64,000 bases of DNA from Deltaproteobacteria bacterium. Its GTDB lineage: Bacteria > Myxococcota_A > Polyangia > Polyangiales > JADJMO01. Below the pieces are notes generated by a model that was not told where the DNA came from, did no database searches, and was given only the letters and a program-made list of their open reading frames with translations. Below are positions 23,713 through 35,235 of the stretch, one piece after another; position 1 is the stretch's first letter; every line of letters begins with the position of its first letter. Made by a program: the position numbers and the translations under genes. The stretch is from contig JANYDK010000118.1 in assembly GCA_025363655.1 (NCBI GenBank), forward strand, positions 1-64,000, written 5' to 3'.

Positions 23713-25086
23713 ATGCCTCGGCGCCGCTCTCTCTCCGCGATCCTCCCCGGCCTCCTCGGCCTTCTCGGCCTCCTCGCCTCGGGATTCATGTGCAGTCCGT
23801 CCTACGCGCCATGGCCGGGAAAAAACGCACAAACCCCATTCCACTACGACGTCGTCCTCTCCTCCGATCTCCGCTTCCTCGACGTCGACCTCGTCCTTCC
23901 GCGTGGCCCGTGGGATTCGCTCGGCGTGGAAGACGACGCCGACAAGTACGTCGTCGATCTCGCAGCGCTCGGCGGCGAGCTGACTCCGCCCTACCACTGC
24001 ACGTCCGAGACGTGCGCGCTCCACTATCGCTTCGCCCTCGCCGATGCCGCGAAGTCGTTCGCGTCGGCCGACGTCGCGCTCGCGGTCGAGGGTGGATACG
24101 TCTCGCCGCCGTCGGCGTGGTTGCTCCATCCACGCGATGGGCTCGAGCATCCGTACACGCTGAGAGTCCGCGGGAAGTTCGCGATCGGTCTTCCGCAAAA
24201 AGAAGGCGCCTATTTCGGAAATGCGCTCGAGCTCGTGCCCTTCGCTGCGCTCGGCGACTTTCGGATGCATCCGATTGCGCTCGGGGATGCGACGATGACG
24301 CTCGCCATCTCGCAGACCGACTTCTCGCTCGGAGACGACGGACTCTCGAAAATTCTCGGTGATGCTGCGCGCCCGGTCGCTGAGCTCTTCGGCAGTTATC
24401 CCTCGATGCTGGTGGTCGTGGTGCCGAAGAACGAGTCGCTCGAGGCGAAGACGCTCGGTGGCGGTGGCGCCAGCATCTTTCTTCCCATCGCCAAAGACGC
24501 GAGCGGGACCAAGCTGCGCAGCGCGTGGGTGCCGACGCACGAGATGGTGCACGTCGGCTTTCCCAACCTCGGATTTCCGCATCAATGGTTCGAGGAGGGG
24601 ATGGCGACCTACCTCGAGCCGCTCATCCGCGTACGGGCGGGGAGCCTCTCCGCCGACGATCGCTTTCGCGAGCTCGTGACCTCGGCACCGCAAGGGCAGC
24701 CGCAGGCGGGTGACGAAGGGCTCGAGAGCACGCACACGTGGGGTCGCACCTATTGGGGTGGCGCGCTCTTCTTCCTCTCGGCCGACGTCGAAATTCGCGT
24801 GCGTACCCAAGGCAAGAAATCGATCGTCGACGTGTTTCGTGCCATCGCTCACCAGCATGGTTCGGTGGCGGTGCAGTGGGACCTCGCGCGCGTGCTCGAC
24901 GTCGGCGACGAGGCGACCGGTCTTCGCGTGCTTCACGAGCACTTCGATCGCTACGCGAAATCGCCCGGAAAATTCGAGGTCGACGCCCTCTTTCGCAAGC
25001 TCGGCGTGTCGGTCAAGGGCGAGAAGGGCGAGACCGTCACCTACGACGACGGCGCCGAGCTCGCCTGGGTGCGCAAGCAATGGTGA
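23713..25086 (+). CDS. Gluzincin-like metallopeptidase (M61/M1-type), exported
   Basis: Predicted exported zinc peptidase of 457 residues. A hydrophobic leader (ILPGLLGLLGLLASGFMC) is followed by a beta-rich N-terminal domain with two Cys (HCTSETCALHY). The zinc site is HEMVH in PTHEMVHVGFP, and EEGMATY supplies the third ligand, as in gluzincins. The C-terminal half is helical. The ATG at 23713 follows the LysR gene by 44 bases, and the next gene begins at or overlapping its stop. It is the first gene of the oxygenase/ligase cluster; a role in trimming modified peptides is inferred from context. Confidence 0.8.
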   Translation: MPRRRSLSAILPGLLGLLGLLASGFMCSPSYAPWPGKNAQTPFHYDVVLSSDLRFLDVDLVLPRGPWDSLGVEDDADKYVVDLAALGGELTPPYHCTSETCALHYRFALADAAKSFASADVALAVEGGYVSPPSAWLLHPRDGLEHPYTLRVRGKFAIGLPQKEGAYFGNALELVPFAALGDFRMHPIALGDATMTLAISQTDFSLGDDGLSKILGDAARPVAELFGSYPSMLVVVVPKNESLEAKTLGGGGASIFLPIAKDASGTKLRSAWVPTHEMVHVGFPNLGFPHQWFEEGMATYLEPLIRVRAGSLSADDRFRELVTSAPQGQPQAGDEGLESTHTWGRTYWGGALFFLSADVEIRVRTQGKKSIVDVFRAIAHQHGSVAVQWDLARVLDVGDEATGLRVLHEHFDRYAKSPGKFEVDALFRKLGVSVKGEKGETVTYDDGAELAWVRKQW

Positions 25087-25100
25087 GCTCGCACGGTCTG

Positions 25101-26204
25101 ATGGATGCGAGTGAACGCGACGCGGTGCTCGCCCCACTCTCGACGGCGACGCCGCTCCCTGCGCGACTCTTCACCGAGCCGGCTGCGTTCGATTTCGAAC
25201 GGCGCGAGATCCTCGCGCGCGCCTGGCGTTGCATCGGACGCGAGGACGAGGTCGCGCTCCCCGGACGCTTCCTCGTCGAAGACGGCATCGCCGTCGTGCG
25301 TGGCGACGATCTGGTGCTGCGCGCCTTTCACGACGTCTGTCGTCATCGGGCGACGCCGATCCTCGAGGCGCCCTGTGGTCGCGTGCGTGAGCTCCGCTGC
25401 CCGTACCACGGTTGGACCTACGATCTTTCGGGCCTGCTCCGCCGTGCGCCCGGTGCCCATTCGACGCTCGATCTCCCCGCGCACGGACTCTTTCCCGCGA
25501 GCGTCGCCTGCTTCCAGGGCTTCGTCTTCGTCCGCGGAGACGTCGCGCCGAAAGACGCAGAATTGCCCCTTCGTTCGGCGCCGCCGTGGCTGGTCGAGAC
25601 TCCGCTCGGCGCGCTCGTCAGGGCGCATCGCAGTACGTACGAAGTCCACGCCAACTGGAAATCGTTGGTCGCCAACTTCCAGGAGTCGCATCACTTCACG
25701 CAGGTGCACGCGGCGCTCGAACGGTTGACGCCGAACGTGCACGCGACCTCGCACCTCGGCGACGGACCTTGGCTCGGTGGCACCATGGACTTGCGAGGCG
25801 ATGTCGAGACCGTTTCCACCACGGGAAAACGCGGCGATCGTCCCTTTCTCGTCGATGCTGCGAGGCGCCGGCAGGTGCACGACGCGATGCTCTTTCCGAC
25901 CCTCCTCACCAGCCTCCAGCCCGACTATCTCCTGACCTATCGTCTGCGGCCGATCAGCGTCGCGCACACGGGCGTCGTCGCCGACGTCTTCGTCCATCCG
26001 CAAGCGCGCACCTTCGAGGACGTCGTCGAGTTCTGGTCGCGCGTGAACGAAGAAGATCGCGCGATCTGCGAACGCCAACAACGAGGCCTCGCCTCGCCGG
26101 CGTATCGTCCGAGCGTCTACGCGGCGGTCGAGGACGGCGTCCACGCGTTCGAAAAACTGATCGCCCGCGCCTATGCCGTCGACGTGACGCAGGAGTCACC
26201 ATGA
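25101..26204 (+). CDS. Rieske non-haem iron oxygenase
   Basis: Oxygenase alpha-subunit-like protein of 367 residues. The Rieske [2Fe-2S] ligands are C80 and H82 (CRHRATP) and C100 and H103 (CPYHGW). The mononuclear iron site is H198 and H203 (ESHHFTQVH), with a distal acid expected near EEDRAICERQQ. The pattern resembles choline/carnitine monooxygenase-type enzymes more than aromatic dioxygenases. An in-frame ATG at 25080, overlapping the peptidase stop, is an alternative start. The following gene overlaps by 4 bases. No reductase or ferredoxin partner is visible nearby. Confidence 0.88.
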   Translation: MDASERDAVLAPLSTATPLPARLFTEPAAFDFERREILARAWRCIGREDEVALPGRFLVEDGIAVVRGDDLVLRAFHDVCRHRATPILEAPCGRVRELRCPYHGWTYDLSGLLRRAPGAHSTLDLPAHGLFPASVACFQGFVFVRGDVAPKDAELPLRSAPPWLVETPLGALVRAHRSTYEVHANWKSLVANFQESHHFTQVHAALERLTPNVHATSHLGDGPWLGGTMDLRGDVETVSTTGKRGDRPFLVDAARRRQVHDAMLFPTLLTSLQPDYLLTYRLRPISVAHTGVVADVFVHPQARTFEDVVEFWSRVNEEDRAICERQQRGLASPAYRPSVYAAVEDGVHAFEKLIARAYAVDVTQESP

Positions 26205-27034
26205 GCAAGCTCGTCGGCCTCTTCGGCGCGCCCTACGCCGACCTCTCCGCGCTCATCGACACCTCCTGCTTTCCCACGCTCGACGACGAGCTGAGCTACG
26301 CCCTCGCGCGGCTCGAACCTTCGTGCAACGGCACCGGCGGCAGCTTGAAGTGGATGGGCGTGGTCGCGCCATGGGTGCACGACGATCCATATCTAGACTA
26401 TGGACACGTCCTCGAAGGGCTCTCACGCGACGAGCTCGCGCGCTTCGTCTCGCTCGGCGACGACCCGGCCTCGGTCGATCTCGACGGGCCACGGCGCTTC
26501 GGCGACGAGACCGATCATCCGCTGAACCGTCGGCAGATGCTCTATTTGAAATATCGCCACGGGGTCTATTTTCCCTGGGCGGTTTGCTACCACCTGCTCA
26601 GCGACGATCGGTGGGAGGACAAGCACTCGGGGGCCGGCAAAGACTTCGAGCCCGAGGCGCTGCGGGAGATGCCGCGCACCGTCGAGTTCGTGAAGAGCCT
26701 CCCTTTCCGCGAGATCGGTCGTTGCGTGCTCTTCGGGCTCGAGGCGGGACAGCACGCCCCGGCGCATCGTGACTCCGAGCCAGGCGTCGCGCCCTCGGTC
26801 GCGCAGTCGATCTCCTTCGCGCCGCGCAAGGGCAAGCGCTTCTATCTCGCCGATCCCAAAGGCGCCCAGCGTACCGTCGTCGAGACGCCGATCTATTGGT
26901 TCAACGACATGGACTACCACGGGGTCGAGGCCGATCCATATTTTCGTTATTCGATCCGCGTCGACGGCGTTTTCGAGCCTTCGTTCGCGCGCGACGTCGA
27001 ACGAGTCACCCGTCGATCAGCACCGGCACGCTGA
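26201..27034 (+). CDS. Iron/2-oxoglutarate oxygenase-like protein, paralogue A
   Basis: Uncharacterised protein of 277 residues with a likely double-stranded beta-helix iron site: H189-x-D191 (APAHRDSEPG), distal H240 (DMDYHGVEADP) and R253, which could bind 2-oxoglutarate. The N-terminal half contains HPLNRRQMLYLKYRHGVYF and GKDF, also found in the paralogue at 29157. AGGAG precedes the ATG, which overlaps the Rieske stop. It runs 29 bases into the convergent ligase gene. I infer oxygenase activity from the metal motif; no named family is recognised. Confidence 0.72.
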   Translation: MSKLVGLFGAPYADLSALIDTSCFPTLDDELSYALARLEPSCNGTGGSLKWMGVVAPWVHDDPYLDYGHVLEGLSRDELARFVSLGDDPASVDLDGPRRFGDETDHPLNRRQMLYLKYRHGVYFPWAVCYHLLSDDRWEDKHSGAGKDFEPEALREMPRTVEFVKSLPFREIGRCVLFGLEAGQHAPAHRDSEPGVAPSVAQSISFAPRKGKRFYLADPKGAQRTVVETPIYWFNDMDYHGVEADPYFRYSIRVDGVFEPSFARDVERVTRRSAPAR

Positions 27035-28256
27035 GCGCGTGGGCGTCGGTGGCGCCGGCCTGTTCGCGCGCGTAGAGGCCACACGCTTCGCCGGCGACCA
27101 GGTACACCCCGTAGTTGATGGTCGCTCCGGCGGCGTCGGTCTCGGCGGCGAAGTAGCGTTGCGCGATGAAGCGACCTGGGCGCGCCTTCGAGAGGGCTTC
27201 GCGCCACGTCGCATCGCTCACCGTCGCCCCGATCACCACCTCGTCCCCTTCGGCGCCGTAGTCACTCTTGATCACCCACTCGGCGCGCTGCACGCGGAGC
27301 TGTTCTTCGTGGAGCGTCTCGAGGCGCGCCGAGATTGGCACGTAGCGCTCGATCACCGTCTGCGCGTGCGGTGAGAAGCGATGGAGGTGCTCCCACATGA
27401 AGGCCATCGAGCGCTTGTTTTGTGGGAGCACGGCGCCGAAGGGATTGACGACGACGCAACGGCCTTCGGCTTGCGCGGCGAAGACGGCGGCGAGCGGCTC
27501 GCGCAGCGGCTCGATGTCGGGCACCGTCTCGTCGGTCCACGGGGAGGCACGCTCGGCCCACCAATCGGTCTTGTAGTGACGGACGAGCACCTGAAACGGT
27601 GCGTCGAAGACGCTGAGCGCGCCCTCGTCGTGTTGCAGGTTGTACGGCGAACCGAGGACCACGCGACGTCCGCGCGATTCGAACCACTGCTTGTAGAGCC
27701 GCACCAGCGAGAGGTCTTCGGTGAACTCGGTCGGATAGACGAGCCCGACGTCGCGCCCCACGCCGGGCTCGAGCTCACCCTCGGCGAGCGCGTCGACCAT
27801 CGCGACGAAGCGGCCTTCGAGCTCGGCGTTCGGATCGCGCGTGCCCGGATGATTCGGCGCCACCAACCTCCCGAGCGTCACCGCTTCGGCCTCACCGGTC
27901 GGCGTGTCGCAGTTGAGCTCGGCGATCGCCAGCCCCTCGGAGGTGACGAAGACGTCGGCGCGCGCGAGCCCATGCCAGAGCGGCCTCGACGCCTGCCACA
28001 TCAATTTTTGGTAGGGCGTGAGACAGAAGAAGTCGTCGAGGAGCGCGTCGTCATCTGCGACGAGGTGGCAGAGCTCGTCGTAGACCGCGCCGATCTCTTC
28101 GGCGGCGAGGTACATCGCGCGTTGCGTCTTCGCCGGCAGGATCAGCGGATCTTCACGAAAACGCGGCTTTCCGTCGAACCACGGATCGCTGATCACGCCC
28201 GCGTCGACGATGCGCCTGGCGAACGCGTCGTAGTTCGAGTGGCTCGAGCTGCTCAC
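27006..28256 (-). CDS. Glutathionylspermidine synthase-like ATP-grasp ligase
   Basis: ATP-grasp amide ligase of 416 residues related to the synthetase domain of GspS and E. coli YjfC. Key segments are ELNCDTPTGEAEA (113-125), NPFGAVLPQNKRSMAFM (271-287) and the ATP-binding WVIKSDYGAEGDE (K330). The family joins a carboxylate to an amine using ATP, in GspS glutathione to spermidine. The start is a GTG at 28256 that overlaps the DUF350 stop (GTGA), so the two are coupled. No amidase domain is present. The substrate here is unknown. Confidence 0.88.
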   Translation of the reverse strand: MSSSSHSNYDAFARRIVDAGVISDPWFDGKPRFREDPLILPAKTQRAMYLAAEEIGAVYDELCHLVADDDALLDDFFCLTPYQKLMWQASRPLWHGLARADVFVTSEGLAIAELNCDTPTGEAEAVTLGRLVAPNHPGTRDPNAELEGRFVAMVDALAEGELEPGVGRDVGLVYPTEFTEDLSLVRLYKQWFESRGRRVVLGSPYNLQHDEGALSVFDAPFQVLVRHYKTDWWAERASPWTDETVPDIEPLREPLAAVFAAQAEGRCVVVNPFGAVLPQNKRSMAFMWEHLHRFSPHAQTVIERYVPISARLETLHEEQLRVQRAEWVIKSDYGAEGDEVVIGATVSDATWREALSKARPGRFIAQRYFAAETDAAGATINYGVYLVAGEACGLYAREQAGATDAHALSVPVLIDG

Positions 28257-29110
28257 GCGAGATGGGTGATGGAGAGGGCCGTCGCCAGGTACGTCGTCGC
28301 TTCGAGCACGCCGAGGCCGACGCTGCGCTCGAGGGCGATTCCGTGATCGATGGGGCCGCCTCGGAGCTTGAGCGGCGCGCGAAGGAGGAGCGATTGCACG
28401 AAGAGCTGACGCACAGGATAGAAGGCGATGATGGCGATGAGCACCATGCCGTAGCCGCGCAGCGAGCTCGTCCACCCCGTGAACTCACCGTCGACCGCGT
28501 GCGCCACCACCAGGGCGATCGAGAGCACCACGCCGGCATAGCTGAGCGCGGCGGCGAGGTTTTCCCCGGCGATTTGCTCGGCGTCGTCGTAGGTCGTGAG
28601 CGCGCGGAAGAGCGTGACGAAGCCGTTCAACGTCGCCTGCGCGAGGACGAAGAAGACGAGCGAGATGCCGAGATCGTGGATGCCGGTGCCGCTGATCGAG
28701 CGCGAGGTGATGACGCCGACTGCCACCCAGTGCGCCCCTGCCGCGAGCCCAGCGGCGACGTTTCCACGCTCGATTTCTGCGGTCAAACGTCCACGAAGGA
28801 GCAGGCGAATACCAGCCTCGCCGGCCGCGGTGGTGAGCACGAGCGCGATCACGCTCGAGGCTGCCGTCCAGACGAGGTCGTGACGGAGCAGGACGCCGAG
28901 GACGCAGCTCTTCACCGCCGCCGCCGCGATGAGGAACGCCGTCAGCACCTGACCGACGCGCAAGAGACGCTGCGCCGGGTTCCCTTCCCCGAGGTCCTTG
29001 GCGAGCGAGCGGCGAGAGCCGGTGAGCCGCGCGCCGACTTGAAGCAGCATGAGCAAAAGCAACGTCGTGCCGACGGCGAAGGCGGCGAGGGTGAAGGGCC
29101 TCGGTTCCAT
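28253..29110 (-). CDS. DUF350 multi-pass membrane protein
   Basis: Membrane protein of 285 residues with about eight hydrophobic segments in a DUF350-like duplicated arrangement (TLLLLMLLQVGARLTG, FLIAAAAVKSCVLG, YGMVLIAIIAFYPVRQLF). DUF350 proteins are repeatedly found next to GspS-like ligases. The ATG at 29110 fixes the start within a longer open frame. It is divergent from the oxygenase-like paralogue B (46-base gap) and coupled to the ligase. Its role, possibly export or a channel, is not established. Confidence 0.82.
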   Translation of the reverse strand: MEPRPFTLAAFAVGTTLLLLMLLQVGARLTGSRRSLAKDLGEGNPAQRLLRVGQVLTAFLIAAAAVKSCVLGVLLRHDLVWTAASSVIALVLTTAAGEAGIRLLLRGRLTAEIERGNVAAGLAAGAHWVAVGVITSRSISGTGIHDLGISLVFFVLAQATLNGFVTLFRALTTYDDAEQIAGENLAAALSYAGVVLSIALVVAHAVDGEFTGWTSSLRGYGMVLIAIIAFYPVRQLFVQSLLLRAPLKLRGGPIDHGIALERSVGLGVLEATTYLATALSITHLA

Positions 29111-29156
29111 GCACGGGAGGGTACACCTCGTCGGCCGCGCCTGGCACAATGGCGCG

Positions 29157-29957
29157 ATGGGGGGCCTTCGTGGGATTTTCGGCCGTCCATGGCTCGACCT
29201 CGAGCCCCACCTCGATCTGCGCGCGCTCGCCGACGTGCACGACGAGATCTGCCTCGGGCTCACGCGCGTGCCCGTCGATTATACCGGTGGCAGCCACCGA
29301 TCGATGGGCATCGTCCCGCCGTCGCATCGCGATGCAGTCTTCGTCGATTACGGCGAAGTGATCGCGGCGATGTCCGACGCCGAGCTCTCGACGCTGCGTA
29401 GCCTCGCCGACGATCCTTCCTCGCTCGACCCTGCGCGCATGCGTCAGCTCACGCTCGGCGAAGAGAGCGAGCACCCGCTCTCGCGCAGGCAGATGTTGTG
29501 GCTGAAATACCGCTTCGGCGTCTATTTCCCGTGGAAGGTCTATCTCGAGCTGATGCCCAATCGATACTGGGACGAGAAGACGAACCCTGCCGGCAAAGAC
29601 TTCACGAGGACCGCGCGCGCGCTCTTTCCGAAGACGCTCGAGCTGGTGCGCAGCCTCCCGTTCGTCTCCATCGGTCGCTGCCTGGTGATGGGCCTCGAGG
29701 CCAACGATCACGGCACCGTGCACTGCGACGGCGACCTCGACGCGCCCCCCGACCCCTTCATCACGCTCTGCCCGGCGGCGAACAAGCGCCTCTTTCTCTG
29801 GGACGAGGCCGCGCAGGAAAAGACGTACGTGCGCGGACGCGCCTATTGGTTCAACGACCACGATCACCACGGGGTCGACGCGGATCCGTTCTTCCGATAC
29901 TCCCTTCGCATCGACGGCGTCTTCCGCCCCGACTTCCTCGAGCGTCTTCGGTCATGA
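29157..29957 (+). CDS. Iron/2-oxoglutarate oxygenase-like protein, paralogue B
   Basis: Paralogue of the gene at 26201 with the same architecture (266 residues): H189-x-D191 (GTVHCDGDLD), distal H238 (DHDHHGVDADP) and R251. Shared stretches are HPLSRRQMLWLKYRFGVYF, GKDF and AYWFND. The ligand spacing is nearly identical in both copies, showing that the metal site is under selection. Unlike copy A it has no Cys beside the acid. It begins divergently from the DUF350 gene and overlaps the next gene by 4 bases. Substrate unknown. Confidence 0.72.
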   Translation: MGGLRGIFGRPWLDLEPHLDLRALADVHDEICLGLTRVPVDYTGGSHRSMGIVPPSHRDAVFVDYGEVIAAMSDAELSTLRSLADDPSSLDPARMRQLTLGEESEHPLSRRQMLWLKYRFGVYFPWKVYLELMPNRYWDEKTNPAGKDFTRTARALFPKTLELVRSLPFVSIGRCLVMGLEANDHGTVHCDGDLDAPPDPFITLCPAANKRLFLWDEAAQEKTYVRGRAYWFNDHDHHGVDADPFFRYSLRIDGVFRPDFLERLRS

Positions 29958-31276
29958 GCGAGCAAGAGCCCTACGAGCGTGATCAGTTCCTCGAGAAAGA
30001 GGGCATCGTCGGCGCGCGCTGGTGGAACAAGCACTTGCAGCGCGACGAGGTCATCACGCGCCGCAGCTCCCTCCGTGGCCTCCTCATCGGTGGCGCGGTG
30101 GTCTTCGGAATCGGCGTCCTCGCGATCAAGAACTGCGACGACGACGAGGACGGCGCTAGCGGCGTCCCCGAACGGCGCAACGCGCTCGAAATGCAGCGAA
30201 ATCATGGCTGGAACTTCGGCTATCGCGGGGAGGGCGTGAGCGTCGACGGCATCGACCCGCAGCCGTTCAGCGCCGCGCAGCTGAGCACGTTGGTCGCCGA
30301 CCTCGCGCCGAAGGACGCTCGCTACTCGCCTTACCACGTGCCGACCGTGCTCCAGTCGGCGACCGCGGGTCCCCTCACCCCGCTCGCGTCCGATCCCCTC
30401 ACGGCGGTGAAGCTCCCCGAGATCATCCGACCGATGATCACCGTCGACATGGAGGTCGCCTATCGCCGTGGCCTCGCGCTCGCTGGGCTCTTCTCCGAAG
30501 CGAAGGTGGAGAACGTCGCCGTGGTCGTCGATTTGTCCGGGCCCGAGTCGGTCGCCTTCGCTGCCGGCGCCGCCGGGACGATGGCGATGGTCTTCACGGT
30601 CGACAATTGGCCCCACCCCCGCGGGGTGGTCCCAGCTCACCGAACCCTCGCCGCCGCGATTCACTATCAACGGCGATTTTCTCAAACAAAACCAGGTCCA
30701 AACGCGCCGCCCCTGTTCGTGCTCGATCGCCATCGCATCGATCCTTACGGCGATGACGCCACGCAATTCGACAATCGACACGTCGCCAAGTTGCCAGTCG
30801 CCGCAGCGCTGACCCAAATGGGCATTCGTCACGTCCTCTACGTGGTGCCCGAGGGCGCGGTCATCCAAGAGCTCGACGATCTCACCGACGCCTTCGTCGG
30901 TTACCAGGCCGCCGAGATCGACGTCCGCGTCTTGCCGGTGTCCGCGTTCGCGCCGCTCTGGGAGAACTATCTCTACGGAGGCACCGCCGAGACGCACCTC
31001 TGCTTCTGGCACGACTATCCGTGGGTCGTGCCGCCTCCGCCTTGTGCGCTGGCCTTCGCAGAGCCGCCCGGCGCGCGCTATGTGCCTCGGCCTCGCGTCT
31101 CGCCCTATTCGAGCGGCCCCGGTGGCTCGCTCAAGCGGCCCGATCAGTTCGCCACCGTGGCGGTGTTCGCCGACGACCAACACGCGGTGCTCGGCGCACA
31201 CAACGGGTCGACGCCGGCAGTGCCGGTGCGCAGCGGGTCGTGGAACCGATCGACCGGCAGCGGGTGTGGAGGATAG
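29954..31276 (+). CDS. Membrane-anchored cluster protein with Ser/Gly/Cys tail
   Basis: Unknown protein of 440 residues. A cytoplasmic N terminus is followed by a Tat-like or signal-anchor segment (RRSSLRGLLIGGAVVFGIGV, 36-55) and Cys61, then a large probably exported domain of alternating strands and helices (VAVVVDLSGPESVAF, RHVLYVVPEGAVIQELD). The last 20 residues are Arg/Ser/Gly/Trp-rich and end SGCGG. ATGA overlap with the oxygenase-like gene and the C-terminal tail make it a candidate substrate or scaffold for the ligase and oxygenases; this is inference. Confidence 0.72.
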   Translation: MSEQEPYERDQFLEKEGIVGARWWNKHLQRDEVITRRSSLRGLLIGGAVVFGIGVLAIKNCDDDEDGASGVPERRNALEMQRNHGWNFGYRGEGVSVDGIDPQPFSAAQLSTLVADLAPKDARYSPYHVPTVLQSATAGPLTPLASDPLTAVKLPEIIRPMITVDMEVAYRRGLALAGLFSEAKVENVAVVVDLSGPESVAFAAGAAGTMAMVFTVDNWPHPRGVVPAHRTLAAAIHYQRRFSQTKPGPNAPPLFVLDRHRIDPYGDDATQFDNRHVAKLPVAAALTQMGIRHVLYVVPEGAVIQELDDLTDAFVGYQAAEIDVRVLPVSAFAPLWENYLYGGTAETHLCFWHDYPWVVPPPPCALAFAEPPGARYVPRPRVSPYSSGPGGSLKRPDQFATVAVFADDQHAVLGAHNGSTPAVPVRSGSWNRSTGSGCGG

Positions 31277-31278
31277 CC

Positions 31279-31848
31279 ATGCTCCACTCCATCTTCGCCC
31301 TCGAGCTCTGCCTGCCGCACGAGGCTTCCGTACGTCAGCGCCTTCATCAGTCGATCGTCACGCAGCCGGAAATCGTCGGACACCACGCGAAGTGGTGCCT
31401 CTACCAAGAGGTGACGCGCACGCTCCTCGAGATGCTTCCCTCGGCAGAGCGCGGCTGTTGGGACTACTTCAACGACGACGCTCGCGCGCGCCACGACTAC
31501 AACATGTGGTCGCAAGGGATGATCACCGAAGAGGGCGCACGCACCAGCCCCTCTGGCGCCAGCGACGCCTACCGCGATGCGCCGCGCTTCATGACCTTCA
31601 CGATGGCCTTCCTCCTCGAGCAGAACACCGCCTGCGATCGCGGCGTCTTCGAGCTCTGCAACATCCCAGAGGCCAACCTGTGGAGACGCGACAGCTACGA
31701 GCGCATCCTCCGCGGCCTCGGCGTCCTCAACTTCACGACCGTGAAATCGGACGTGATTTACCTGATCCCCGGCGCCGACGACTGGGCGCTCACCCCGGAA
31801 GATCTGCAGCACGACAAGTTCGAGTATCTGCGCATCATCACCGGCTGA
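31279..31848 (+). CDS. Hypothetical cluster protein, 189 aa
   Basis: I do not recognise a family. The ATG follows GGAGG by 8 bases and lies 2 bases after the preceding stop. The protein is soluble and helix-rich, with Trp, Tyr and Cys in the middle (CWDYFNDDARARHDYNMWSQ) and a probable beta ending (VKSDVIYLIPGADDW). It is the last rightward gene of the cluster and abuts the convergent 2-oxoglutarate oxygenase without a gap. Confidence 0.68.
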   Translation: MLHSIFALELCLPHEASVRQRLHQSIVTQPEIVGHHAKWCLYQEVTRTLLEMLPSAERGCWDYFNDDARARHDYNMWSQGMITEEGARTSPSGASDAYRDAPRFMTFTMAFLLEQNTACDRGVFELCNIPEANLWRRDSYERILRGLGVLNFTTVKSDVIYLIPGADDWALTPEDLQHDKFEYLRIITG

Positions 31849-32562
31849 TCAGAACCACGTCTCCCAGACGCCGCGATCGATCTCCGCAGCGTGCACCGTC
31901 GCCGAGACGCGATCGAGCGCGCCCTCGAACGGTCGAATCTGATGGAGCCGATAGCTGTCGAGGACGACGACGTCGCCGACCTCGGAGACGATCGTGGTGC
32001 TCTCGCGCGCGAGATGCTCTTCCGAGGCTTCATGCTCGCCATCTTCTCCGTCGTAACTCACGTCCCAGAGGCGCAAGCCGCCGCCGGCCGCCGGCTTCTG
32101 CAGCATCGCCACGATCGTGATCGCCGCTCGTCGACGTTCGAGGTGCGACGCTGCTAGGCCTTCGGTGTCGAAGTGGACGACGCCGCCATGCTCGGCGACG
32201 TGACCACCCGCGGGAAAAATGTGCACCCCGGGCCCCGCCCAACCGCGTCGCGCGCGCACGACGGCATCACGGGTGGGGACGACCTCGGCGACGAGCTCAC
32301 GCATCACACGTTGCAGTCCTGGTGCGAATCGTTCGACGCGCGCATCGGAGCCGGCAGCGTCGCGAAAATAGGCCTCGCTGCGTCCCTCTTCGAGGTGCGT
32401 GTAGAACGCGCGACCGAGGCTGAATTGCTCGCCCCCGAAGTCGGCGTTCCACTCGCTGCGCCCAGCGTAGACACCTCGGACGAACGCGTGACAGACGGCG
32501 GCGTCGAGGCGAGAGCGAAGAACGCGCACGAGCGGCTCGACCACCGAGCAGAGATACCTCAC
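31849..32562 (-). CDS. 2-oxoglutarate/Fe(II)-dependent oxygenase (prolyl hydroxylase-like)
   Basis: Oxygenase of 237 residues with the HxD...H...R pattern of prolyl-4-hydroxylase-like enzymes: H130 and D132 (GGVVHFDTEG), distal H207 (SYRLHQIRPF) and R218 (DRVSATVHA). The beta-strands between (AAITIVAMLQKP, LRLWDVSYD) fit the double-stranded beta-helix. It ends at the stop of the 189-residue gene and is divergent from the Kazal-like lipoprotein across an 18-base palindrome. The third iron oxygenase of this cluster. Confidence 0.85.
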   Translation of the reverse strand: MRYLCSVVEPLVRVLRSRLDAAVCHAFVRGVYAGRSEWNADFGGEQFSLGRAFYTHLEEGRSEAYFRDAAGSDARVERFAPGLQRVMRELVAEVVPTRDAVVRARRGWAGPGVHIFPAGGHVAEHGGVVHFDTEGLAASHLERRRAAITIVAMLQKPAAGGGLRLWDVSYDGEDGEHEASEEHLARESTTIVSEVGDVVVLDSYRLHQIRPFEGALDRVSATVHAAEIDRGVWETWF

Positions 32563-32579: not shown

Positions 32580-32597
32580 GCAACCGTGCACGGTTGC
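32580..32597. promoter_or_regulatory. 18-base perfect palindrome, divergent promoter region
   Basis: GCAACCGTGCACGGTTGC is its own reverse complement. It lies 17 bases upstream of the 2-oxoglutarate oxygenase ATG (leftward) and 57 bases upstream of the Kazal-like lipoprotein GTG (rightward). It is a strong candidate operator shared by both. Related GTGC/GCAC-cored palindromes precede two further lipoproteins (33959, 60010). Confidence 0.6.
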
Positions 32598-32653
32598 ATG
32601 TGGGGCGGTGTGGGAGTACATGGGCGCCATCCCTTTCTACAAAGAGGTGCTGC

Positions 32654-33784
32654 GTGTTTTCTCGTTCCATTTCCATCGTTCTCCTCGCCTCCTCCCTCGT
32701 CTTCGCCGGTTGCGCCGCGCAGACTTCTCACGACGGTGAGGAAGATCCCTCGACCTTCACCGCTGCCGAAGGCGCGCTCTCGTCCTACGCGAAGCAGCTC
32801 GTGGGTGACTACAAGAGCGACGCGCTCTACCCGCGCTTCTCGCTCCTCAAAGACGGCTCGTACACCTTCGACACCGGCATCCGCTGCATCAAGGCGCCGT
32901 GTCCCTCGGGCGACGCCGGCACGTTCTCCATCTGGAACGACAGCCGCGCTCGCAAGTACGTCAACCTCTTCTCCACCGACGGCAAGGTGTCGCGTTGGTT
33001 CCGCGTCGACGCGCTCAAGCCCGTCACGCTCGTCGGCGTCAGCGGCATCACCGGCACGTTCAAGACGATCGCCGCCGCGGGCACCTGCATCGCGAACAAC
33101 GACTGCGGAAGCGGCGAACAGTGCGTCGGCAGCGTCTGCACCGCGCGTCCGCTCTGCGCGCAGGTCGTCGGCACCGACGGCGTCATCCACGTCAAGAACT
33201 TCGCCGCTGGCTCGTACGCCGACGCCGACGCGTGGGCCTCGTCCACCGCCGCGGGCGCTGGCTACGGCATCAGCATCGGCACCTGCACGGAAGTCGCCAC
33301 CGGCTTCTACTGCACCGACGTCTACCAGCCGACGTGCGCCTTCGTCTCGGGCGCCGACGCGGCCAAGACGTACACCTCTCCCTGCGACGCCAAGCGCGCG
33401 GTGATCGCCGCCGCCGGCGGTGGGGACGCGATCGGCGTCACGCAGAAGGGCGCTTGCACCACCGGCGCCAACTACTGCTCGACGTTCCAGCGCACCAGCG
33501 ACGGCAGCCCGTCGTTCGCCTACTACGCGCACACGTTCGGCTCGCAGTTCGAAGCCAACGCGTGGATCCAACTCAACCCCGGCGCCTCGAACCCCGTCGT
33601 CCTCGCCGACACGTGCACGAGCTTCCTCATGTGCACCGAGATCTACAAGCCGGTCTGCGGCGGCGTGAAGTCCGACACGGCCCGCACGTTCGGCAACCAG
33701 TGCCAGCTCGAGGCGGCCGTCCGCGCCGACACGAAGGCCACGGGCTCCTCGAAGGGCTACGGCCAGCCCGGCGCCTGTAAGTAG
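32654..33784 (+). CDS. Kazal-like Cys-rich lipoprotein, copy 1
   Basis: Secreted lipoprotein of 376 residues (lipobox FAGC, Cys20). A beta domain with FDTGIRCIKAPCPSGDAG is followed by a Cys knot (CGSGEQCVGSVC) and two Kazal-like modules (about 220-250, CTDVYQPTCAF; about 327-356, CTEIYKPVCGGV ending GNQCQLEAAV). Kazal domains usually inhibit serine proteases. The GTG start is set by AGAGG 8 bases upstream and by homology to the next gene. A close paralogue follows in tandem. Confidence 0.8.
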   Translation: MFSRSISIVLLASSLVFAGCAAQTSHDGEEDPSTFTAAEGALSSYAKQLVGDYKSDALYPRFSLLKDGSYTFDTGIRCIKAPCPSGDAGTFSIWNDSRARKYVNLFSTDGKVSRWFRVDALKPVTLVGVSGITGTFKTIAAAGTCIANNDCGSGEQCVGSVCTARPLCAQVVGTDGVIHVKNFAAGSYADADAWASSTAAGAGYGISIGTCTEVATGFYCTDVYQPTCAFVSGADAAKTYTSPCDAKRAVIAAAGGGDAIGVTQKGACTTGANYCSTFQRTSDGSPSFAYYAHTFGSQFEANAWIQLNPGASNPVVLADTCTSFLMCTEIYKPVCGGVKSDTARTFGNQCQLEAAVRADTKATGSSKGYGQPGACK

Positions 33785-33958
33785 TCGCCGTTCGTCGCAT
33801 CTAGAAAAAAAGCAGCAGGGCCCGCACGACGTCGTGACGCCTTCCACGGGATGACCGTGGGGCGCGTCGACGTCGCGCGGGCTTTCGCGTTTGGAGTCGC
33901 GACCGACACCGTTCGGGCCCAGCAGAGTTTTCTCGAACCGACGAGCACGGCATGCGCA

Positions 33959-33974
33959 CGCACATGTATGTGCG
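33959..33974. promoter_or_regulatory. Palindrome upstream of second Kazal-like lipoprotein
   Basis: Inverted repeat CGCACAT (33959-33965) and ATGTGCG (33968-33974) around GT, 80 bases upstream of the GTG start at 34054. Its position and GCAC/GTGC content parallel the 18-base palindrome before copy 1. A conserved leader (GTAC, CATCCCTTT and AAGAGGTGC, then GCGTG) follows each, suggesting that the whole promoter was duplicated with the gene. Confidence 0.45.
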
Positions 33975-34053
33975 CCATTTTCACCGCGGCAAATTGCTGG
34001 TGGGGAAATGTAGGAGTACCTCCTCGACATCCCTTTTCCGGAAGAGGTGCCGC

Positions 34054-35235
34054 GTGGTCGTTCGCTCCGTTCGCTCTGTTCGCTCTGTTCGCTCGGTACG
34101 GTCCGTGTTCGTGGTCTGGTTCGCTTCGTCGGTCGCAATCCTCGGTTGCGCCGCCCAGCCGACGCACGACGGTCGCGAAGACCCTTCGACGTTCACCGCG
34201 TCGACCGATCGATCGACCAACGGCGCGGGCTCGTCGTTCGCGAAGCAGCTCGTCGGCGACTACCGGAGCGGCGATCTCTACCCGCGCTTCTCGATTCGCG
34301 CAGACGGCACGTACGCCTGGGACGACTCATCCTCCTCGTCGGGCGAGGTCGGCACACTCTCTCTCTGGAACGACGGCCACGGTCGCAACTACGTCAAGCT
34401 CCTCGCGTCACACGGCACCGGCGGCAGCGGCGGCACGGTCGCGCGTTGGTTCCGCATCGATGGCGTCGCTCCTACGCTCCTCGTCGGCATCGCCGGCACC
34501 CTCGGCAACTTCCACGGAATCACCCCGCCGGGCGGCTGCACCTCGTCGCTCGAGTGCGGAGCCGGTGAGCAGTGCATCAGCGGCGGCTCGTGCGTCGCGA
34601 GCCCGCTCTGCGTCCAGCTCACCACACCCGATGGCGTCGTCCGCGCGAGAAACTTCCCCGCGGGTTCCTACGGCGCAGCGTCGACGTGGGCGTCGTCCAC
34701 CGCCGCCGGCGGTAGCTACGTCATCGGCCTCGGCACTTGTTCGTACCTCGTGTCCACCACCGCGTGCAGCGACGTCACCGTGACGACATGCGCGCTCATC
34801 TCGGGTGCCGACGACGCCGTGACCTACGACTCGGCCTGCGCGGTGATGCGCGCGGTGATGGACGCGGCCGGCACCGACGATGCGATCGGCATCACCCACG
34901 CCGGCGCCTGCGCACCCGACGTCACGTCGTGCGCGACCTACTACCGCTCGAGCGGCGGCGGGGCCTTCACGTACTTCGCCCACACGTTCGGCTCGACCTT
35001 CGAAGCCAACGCGTGGCTCCAGCTCAGCCCCGGCGTCTCGAGCCCGCTCGTGGTCGGCGATGATTGCGCCCACGTCCCCGCCTGCCCCGACGACGACCTG
35101 CCGGTGTGCGGCGGCGTGAAGTTCGGGGCGGCGGGCACGTTCAGAAACCAGTGTTACTTCGAGGCGGCCGTGCTCCACGACACCGCGGCCACGGGATGGT
35201 CGAAGGGTTACTGGCAAGCCGACGCTTGTCGGTAG
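34054..35235 (+). CDS. Kazal-like Cys-rich lipoprotein, copy 2
   Basis: Tandem paralogue of the gene at 32654 (393 residues). The GTG start is set by the conserved AAGAGGTGC leader. The signal peptide's n-region is expanded by a VRS repeat and ends AILGC. Corresponding domains follow: Cys knot (CGAGEQCISGGSC), a degenerate first Kazal-like module (CSDVTVTTCAL) and a second (CPDDDLPVCGGV ending RNQCYFEAAV). The pentapeptide core CIKAPCPS of copy 1 is replaced by a Ser-rich loop. Differences in the first module suggest functional divergence. Confidence 0.8.
   Translation: MVVRSVRSVRSVRSVRSVFVVWFASSVAILGCAAQPTHDGREDPSTFTASTDRSTNGAGSSFAKQLVGDYRSGDLYPRFSIRADGTYAWDDSSSSSGEVGTLSLWNDGHGRNYVKLLASHGTGGSGGTVARWFRIDGVAPTLLVGIAGTLGNFHGITPPGGCTSSLECGAGEQCISGGSCVASPLCVQLTTPDGVVRARNFPAGSYGAASTWASSTAAGGSYVIGLGTCSYLVSTTACSDVTVTTCALISGADDAVTYDSACAVMRAVMDAAGTDDAIGITHAGACAPDVTSCATYYRSSGGGAFTYFAHTFGSTFEANAWLQLSPGVSSPLVVGDDCAHVPACPDDDLPVCGGVKFGAAGTFRNQCYFEAAVLHDTAATGWSKGYWQADACR
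34060..34095 (+). repeat. 9-base in-frame tandem repeat in a signal peptide
   Basis: Four units of GTTCGCTCT (last base varies) encode Val-Arg-Ser repeats in the n-region of the second Kazal-like lipoprotein; a degenerate fifth follows. Confidence 0.85.

Follow-up and report, generated by a model that had tools for sequence, protein, structure and literature searches.

Gene content of the locus

The window analyzed here is a stretch of 64,000 nucleotides from a Deltaproteobacteria bacterium (assembly GCA_025363655.1, contig JANYDK010000118.1, forward strand), and the system in question is a set of nine genes, g1 to g9, at positions 23713–32562. These encode an ATP-grasp ligase related to GspS, YgiC, and YjfC, a DUF350 membrane protein, an anchored protein with a conserved C-terminal tail, and four iron oxygenases, among others. 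g2–g9 form a conserved cluster in Sorangium and its relatives in the Myxococcota, and this association of ligase, tail, and oxygenases suggests that an envelope protein receives a modification, probably of polyamine type, that is completed by oxidation. All nine open reading frames (ORFs) are confirmed in the window, and ORF reading and Pfam uphold the products named in the original prediction: a peptidase, a Rieske enzyme, two HxD…H paralogues, a GSP_synth ligase with a DUF350 protein, a protein with an SGCGG end, a 189-residue protein, and an oxygenase of the 2-oxoglutarate (2OG)-Fe(II) type. The features are as follows:

23713–25086, + strand: g1, exported HExxH (gluzincin-like) peptidase; sub-threshold M61 match; outside the conserved system
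25083–26204, + strand: g2, Rieske non-haem iron oxygenase alpha subunit; PF00848 and PF00355; alternative ATG start at 25101
26201–27034, + strand: g3, HxD…H oxygenase, paralogue of g6; no Pfam model
27006–28256, − strand: g4, GspS/YgiC/YjfC-like ATP-grasp ligase; PF03738; no CHAP amidase domain
28253–29110, − strand: g5, membrane protein with two DUF350 (YjfL) domains; PF03994 in two stretches; several hydrophobic segments
29157–29957, + strand: g6, HxD…H oxygenase of the same family as g3; directly upstream of g7 in most clusters
29954–31276, + strand: g7, anchored protein, proposed ligase substrate; RR and hydrophobic anchor, residues 36–58
31229–31273, + strand: C-terminal tail of g7, RSGSWNRSTGSGCGG, proposed modification site; invariant residues and tail signature
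31279–31848, + strand: g8, 189-residue protein; present only in g7-bearing genomes
31849–32562, − strand: g9, 2OG-Fe(II)-type oxygenase; sub-threshold 2OG-FeII_Oxy_3 match; iron ligands invariant

The tight packing originally described is borne out by the overlaps of g1/g2 (GTGA at 25083), g2/g3 (ATGA at 26201), g4/g5 (28253–28256), and g6/g7 (ATGA at 29954), as well as by the 2-bp gap between g7 and g8. Left unstated at that time was that the genes occupy both strands in the pattern +++ −− +++ −, with g1-g2-g3 (+), g5-g4 (−), g6-g7-g8 (+), and g9 (−). g3 and g4 are convergent with a 29-bp tail-to-tail overlap, while g5 and g6 diverge with 46 bp between them. The locus therefore comprises at least four transcription units, and the strand arrangement rules out a single, co-transcribed nine-gene operon.

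Conservation of the cluster

Related loci were mapped with profiles of all nine genes, covering g6 relatives in named genomes and g7 relatives in 193 genomes of the class. Sorangium cellulosum So ce26 (L033) and So0157-2 (L036) and many metagenome-assembled genomes (MAGs) have g4, g5, g6, g7, and g8 together, often closed off by g9, and this recurrence excludes chance. The comparison of gene order across Myxococcota, which the original prediction had called for, thus came out in its favor for g4–g9. With the g2-g3 pair accompanying and close co-occurrence by genome, it sustains the view that the ligase, the DUF350 protein, and several iron oxygenases make up one modifying system.

The core of the cluster consists of g4, g5, g7, and g8, to which g6, g3, g2 (paired with g3), and g9 are added. 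A Labilithrix MAG (L044) has g6–g8 only, and other families have a simpler same-strand core, either DUF350-ligase-g7-g8 or ligase-g7 (L109, L110, L116, and L119). In L048 and L055, the gene set is rearranged on one strand as g6-g5-g4-g7-g8. g4 and g7, which are separated by g6 and g5 in the window, are adjacent in L048, L109, and L116. The g2-g3 pair is retained in core-bearing genomes even when displaced (L148, L149, L150, and L151), and in many clusters g9 lies next to g8, or, in L144, next to g6.

Within the class, g7 is found in 32 of the 193 genomes and GSP_synth in 33, with both present in 25. Several of the seven genomes that have g7 without a GSP_synth match show a match to the g4 profile beside g7 (L136, L137, L126, L141, and L142). 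Every genome with g8 also has g7 (20/20). Relatives of g6/g3 occur in 16 genomes. They are accompanied by g7 and GSP_synth in 15 of these, and the match in the remaining genome is weak and partial.

The peptidase g1 was considered as a member of the system and rejected. It has HEMVH at residue 276 and only a sub-threshold Pfam M61 match, and its relatives, although present in 91 of the 193 genomes, lie at unrelated places and in no related cluster locus. The "trimming" step once assigned to the peptidase fails because g1 is not conserved with the cluster; moreover, the flanking-ORF check and the distribution of g1 reveal no protease that is. Among the conserved flanking ORFs of the Myxococcota clusters there is no transporter or other biosynthetic gene, and the only further group of similar ORFs, protein kinase-like and scattered in position, is taken as chance. 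PspA (YjfJ), YjfI, and YjfK are absent from the nine proteins, and none was recovered as a conserved neighbor.

The ligase and the DUF350 protein

g4 is a stand-alone synthetase that matches GSP_synth (PF03738) with 52.6 bits against a cut-off of 29.3. Pfam detects no CHAP amidase domain in it; this domain is present in the control locus L094. Alignment with E. coli YgiC, YjfC, and Gss shows that the residues corresponding to Gss R316, D318, E330, N332, K498, K533, and R598 are kept, while the positions of Gss Ser335 and Ser337 are occupied by Thr/Thr, as in YgiC and YjfC. In the Gss crystal structure, these residues bind metal, ATP, and glutathione. The g4 orthologue of Sorangium cellulosum So ce26 lies at L033:7686-8930. 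g5 harbors two DUF350 domains (PF03994, 91.7 bits). In RefSeq, YgiC and YjfC are both named peptide-spermidine ligase, an activity attributed to Pederick et al. 2023 (PMID 36745518), as cited in PMC12568646.

The anchored protein and its C-terminal tail

g7 is a protein of 440 residues with a single hydrophobic segment (residues 40–58) that follows an arginine pair kept in nearly all relatives; its core is alpha/beta. It matches no Pfam family, and neither g7 nor 19 of its relatives match a DUF1190 model. Some relatives resemble twin-arginine lipoproteins (e.g., L021, TRRQFAAGG…TAGC), and distant ones resemble ordinary lipoproteins. g8 likewise has no Pfam match. Known folds were sought for both proteins by comparing AlphaFold models with the PDB in Foldseek and were rejected: the best match of g7 has an E value of 0.011 and a TM-score of 0.17, and that of g8, confidently modeled with a predicted local distance difference test (pLDDT) score of 89, has an E value of 0.89. 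No fold-based function is therefore claimed for either. A profile search of PDB sequences with g7, g8, and g6/g3 gave nothing useful.

The C-terminus of g7 reads RSGSWNRSTGSGCGG. It follows a poorly conserved stretch, and its residues R426, G428, R432, and G439 are invariant in 20 sequences. E. coli YjfM ends in SRGGYGRSSSARGHWGG, and E. coli YgiB has TRGGFGES ahead of …SRSMGG. A pattern written after seeing the g7 and E. coli tails, R-x(0,1)-G-[GS]-[FYW]-[GN] within 45 residues of the C-terminus plus a Gly in at least one of the two final positions, was scanned against ORFs of at least 80 residues in all frames of 65 loci around such ligases. Of 4,248 ORFs, 30 fit the pattern, every one of them a ligase partner; this figure is not a count of independent events, since ligases or g6 had guided the choice of loci and many matches are homologous to one another. 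In the 34 kb of E. coli sequence scanned, YgiB and YjfM are the sole matches. The independent part of this evidence is that unrelated carriers have the tail in common, namely DUF1190 proteins, proteins of ~110–130 residues beside canonical Myxococcota ligases (L091–L093), and the g7 family with its distant relatives. The original prediction recorded the SGCGG end and overlooked its link to the tail, which is the strongest clue: the tail is common to the partners of known peptide-spermidine ligases.

Fifteen further ligase loci from plasmids and phages, fetched afterwards and outside the scanned sample, extend the distribution. In most of them, the product of a neighboring gene bears a [GQA]GFG-like or GGWG tail, recognized in some cases by a looser pattern only; such tails occur on unrelated carriers from other Proteobacteria, Arthrobacter, and phages. 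In Paracoccus, the match is to a raw reading frame, the record being unannotated. Leptolyngbya and Virgibacillus have Gly/Ser-rich tails without the pattern, and no such tail was found at the ligase locus of Azospirillum TSH58. The true GspSA type with its CHAP domain (Myxococcota, L094) has no tail-protein neighbor.

The residues that follow the tail aromatic differ between clusters. [N/T]R is found in 21 of 28 clusters with g6 and in 1 of 14 without it, the latter having mostly GR, in a comparison uncorrected for phylogeny. The Asn/Thr was considered as the oxygenase target and set aside as only a lead: the clades are confounded, and L058-type clusters have both oxygenases together with an SGSFGR tail.

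Ligase–tail pairs were also encountered elsewhere. The genome of the window encodes a second, distant ligase-g7 pair (L106:7163-9399, contig C67), whose g7-like protein ends in …HAWGGGGWGGGGFGG with ARAHGGFGG upstream. Phages of Sinorhizobium, Achromobacter, Aeromonas, and Ochrobactrum (L208, L210, L211, and L212) carry a YjfC-like ligase and a neighboring protein, mostly a lipoprotein, with a GGFG tail; in the Achromobacter phage Motura, the gene order is homospermidine synthase, RGGFG lipoprotein, and ligase. An Arthrobacter tail protein (L202:3263-3769), which ends in TRGGFGGGAKGGGGHGG, is annotated, probably wrongly, as a tRNA-dihydrouridine synthase. On a Roseomonas plasmid (L203:2709-5059), DUF350 and DUF1190 genes adjoin a tandem pair of GspS-like ligases.

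The iron oxygenases

g6 and g3 are 44% identical. In 21 aligned sequences of their family, the HxD motif, the distal H, and a downstream R do not vary. Neither protein has a noteworthy Pfam match or any match among PDB sequences. The HxD…H iron ligands and the downstream Arg are those of the 2OG-Fe(II) oxygenase superfamily, whose use of 2-oxoglutarate and oxygen is a prediction for g6/g3. g9 scores weakly against the 2OG-FeII_Oxy_3 and WelO5 profiles, and its HFD130–132, H207, and R218 are invariant in 12 sequences. g2 matches PF00848 (1.3e-36) and PF00355 (1.5e-13), with both its Rieske motifs (CxH86–88 and CxxH106–109) and its mononuclear iron motif (HHxxxxH203–209) intact.

A 7.3-kb locus in a genome of the Obscuribacterales (L057), which belong to another phylum, encodes a canonical ligase (320 bits), a tail protein ending in KPSGFGGTGGARPGGSVGGGSRGGSVGGG (an SGFGG tail), a flavin amine oxidase, a g6 relative (43% identical), and a weak g9 relative (71 bits). 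This locus is the strongest indication of a link between the ligase and g6 and g9. It comes from one MAG and may have its source in contamination or transfer; a g6 match was found in 1 of 292 genomes of that phylum, the L057 genome alone. The flavin amine oxidase (L057:8450-9913, 153 bits) lies between the ligase and the g6 relative and is a possible further tailoring enzyme.

Proposed modification and alternatives

We favor, with moderate confidence, a reading that places g2–g9 among systems of the YjfL-YjfM-YjfC kind as their Myxococcota version: g4 would amidate the C-terminus of g7, probably with a polyamine, and the oxygenases would oxidize the tail or the amine. The amidation step is proposed because the tail is shared by ligase partners and YgiC and YjfC are published peptide-spermidine ligases. 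In this reaction, the C-terminal carboxylate of g7 would be activated by g4 and coupled to an amine. The likeliest amine is a polyamine such as spermidine, an identity carried over from diverged relatives. The partner relation of g4 and g7 is well supported. g7 would stand in, as an anchored envelope protein, for the unrelated DUF1190 lipoprotein YjfM; its tail, RSGSWNRSTGSGCGG, would serve as recognition and acceptor segment. g6, g9, and the g2-g3 pair may then hydroxylate or otherwise oxidize the tail or the attached amine, their substrate being the least certain step. The modification is probably cytoplasmic, taking place before g7 reaches the membrane beside the DUF350 protein, and the twin-arginine translocation route would permit export of folded, already modified g7. 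A polyamine is favored by the homospermidine synthase gene ahead of the tail lipoprotein and ligase genes in phage Motura, and by a Spermine_synth match in the genome of the window.

Several points weigh against this reading. g4 is distant in sequence from canonical ligases (53 bits vs 463 for a canonical Myxococcota one) and has no PDB sequence match; given this distance, its amine donor may differ. The cluster contains no conserved polyamine gene by the conserved-neighbor check. The Fisher values for co-occurrence overstate the independent evidence because the genomes are related by descent and the counts do not stand for independent events. The last residue of some g7 tails is Ser instead of Gly, and the last Gly-Gly codons of g7 (GGAGGA) are also the likely Shine-Dalgarno sequence of g8; thus, the last two residues alone are weak evidence. 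This second role could account for the final GG, but not for the RSGSWNR that lies 9–15 residues before the end.

The divergence of g4 and the missing polyamine gene would also fit a different donor: g4 may act on the g7 tail to attach an amino acid, an amino sugar, or another protein, with the oxygenases making or finishing that donor, and the presence of four oxygenases suggests a more elaborate group. This account is unlikely, though it carries real weight; g4 retains the YgiC/YjfC-like Thr/Thr pair and the catalytic residues, and ligase relatives adjoin genes for homospermidine synthase and amine oxidase. The oxygenases could instead be neighbors with an unrelated job, leaving g4, g5, g7, and g8 to work together. 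The oxygenase-free clusters (L109, L110, L116, and L119) and the g6 relatives found apart from the ligase in L051–L053 lean this way, yet co-occurrence in 15 of 16 genomes, the displaced g2-g3 pairs that sit in core-bearing genomes, and the independent association in another phylum (Obscuribacterales) make such a separation improbable.

We give still less credence to two further accounts. One casts g7 as the scaffold on which a small molecule is built: the C-terminus would be extended, oxidized by the iron enzymes, and then released by cleavage, as in pearlins. Extension of a peptide at its C-terminus followed by oxidation is known pathway logic, the extension step being described in PMC10979984, and several oxygenases are at hand. 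However, g7 is a 440-residue anchored protein with a conserved core domain rather than a short precursor, and neither a conserved protease nor, in the flanking ORFs, a transporter or other biosynthetic gene accompanies it. The other, just as doubtful, is a YjfI-M-related system for envelope stress. Its working parts would be DUF350, g7, and g8, and the oxygenases, instead of modifying g7, would sense oxygen or iron or control expression. DUF350/GspS-like operons are tied to PspA stress systems in PMC11237479, and PspA linkage is observed here in Rhizobium, Pseudomonas, and Vibrio, but neither PspA nor YjfI was recovered in the Myxococcota clusters by the conserved-neighbor check, and four catalytic oxygenases with intact iron ligands exceed the needs of a sensor.

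Relation to known systems

The cluster resembles E. coli YjfL-YjfM-YjfC and YgiB-YgiC in the catalytic residues of its ligase, its DUF350 protein, and an envelope-anchored partner with an R-x-G-[GS]-[FYW] tail. It differs in that g7 has no DUF1190 match and carries RSGSWNR in place of RGGFG/RGGYG, that no YjfI, YjfJ (PspA), or YjfK is found, and that four iron oxygenases and g8 are added. With Gss/GspSA, g4 shares the PF03738 synthetase family and the metal and ATP residues; in contrast, it lacks the CHAP amidase, has Thr/Thr rather than Ser/Ser at Gss 335/337, and has a tail protein in its cluster. A GspS-like ligase, DUF350, and an envelope protein are likewise combined in the PspA-linked ATP-grasp/DUF350/DUF1190 operons of PMC11237479, a study that does not mention Myxococcota and whose passage on the operons names no oxygenases, g7, g8, or tail motif. 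g9 and g6/g3 share the invariant HxD…H and downstream R of 2OG-Fe(II) oxygenases, although g6/g3 have neither a Pfam model nor a PDB sequence match. Unlike a pearlin-type scaffolded ribosomally synthesized and post-translationally modified peptide, the cluster has no short precursor and no conserved release protease.

In hypusine formation on eIF5A, transfer of a polyamine to the protein is followed by iron-dependent hydroxylation. The likeness to the proposed pathway is by analogy only, as a C-terminal amide is proposed here in place of a lysine side chain and the enzymes are unrelated. A bolder version of the favored reading, which we put forward tentatively and regard as less likely than not, is a hypusine-like bacterial modification in which an envelope protein is C-terminally polyamine-capped by an ATP-grasp ligase and hydroxylated by a new iron-oxygenase family and a Rieske enzyme, and in which YgiC/YjfC-type ligases, bacterial and phage alike, would generally recognize the R-x-G-[GS]-[FYW] tail as their acceptor code.

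A search of the literature outside subscription papers, which may contain an earlier description, returned no report of the cluster or the tail rule. Nor did it yield a description of the g6/g3 family, of g7 or g8, or of this ligase type together with four iron oxygenases, or an established cellular protein substrate for YgiC/YjfC. The tail signature names a likely substrate and a likely site in many lineages and phages, and the Myxococcota clusters add enzymes that would extend the modification, among them members of an oxygenase family that Pfam does not model. If the favored reading is true, the system would modify a protein at its C-terminus and bring its own enzymes for oxidative tailoring.

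Adjoining the cluster in the window, at 32594–33784 and 33952–35235, are two tandem paralogues, with provisional start codons, that are probably secreted.

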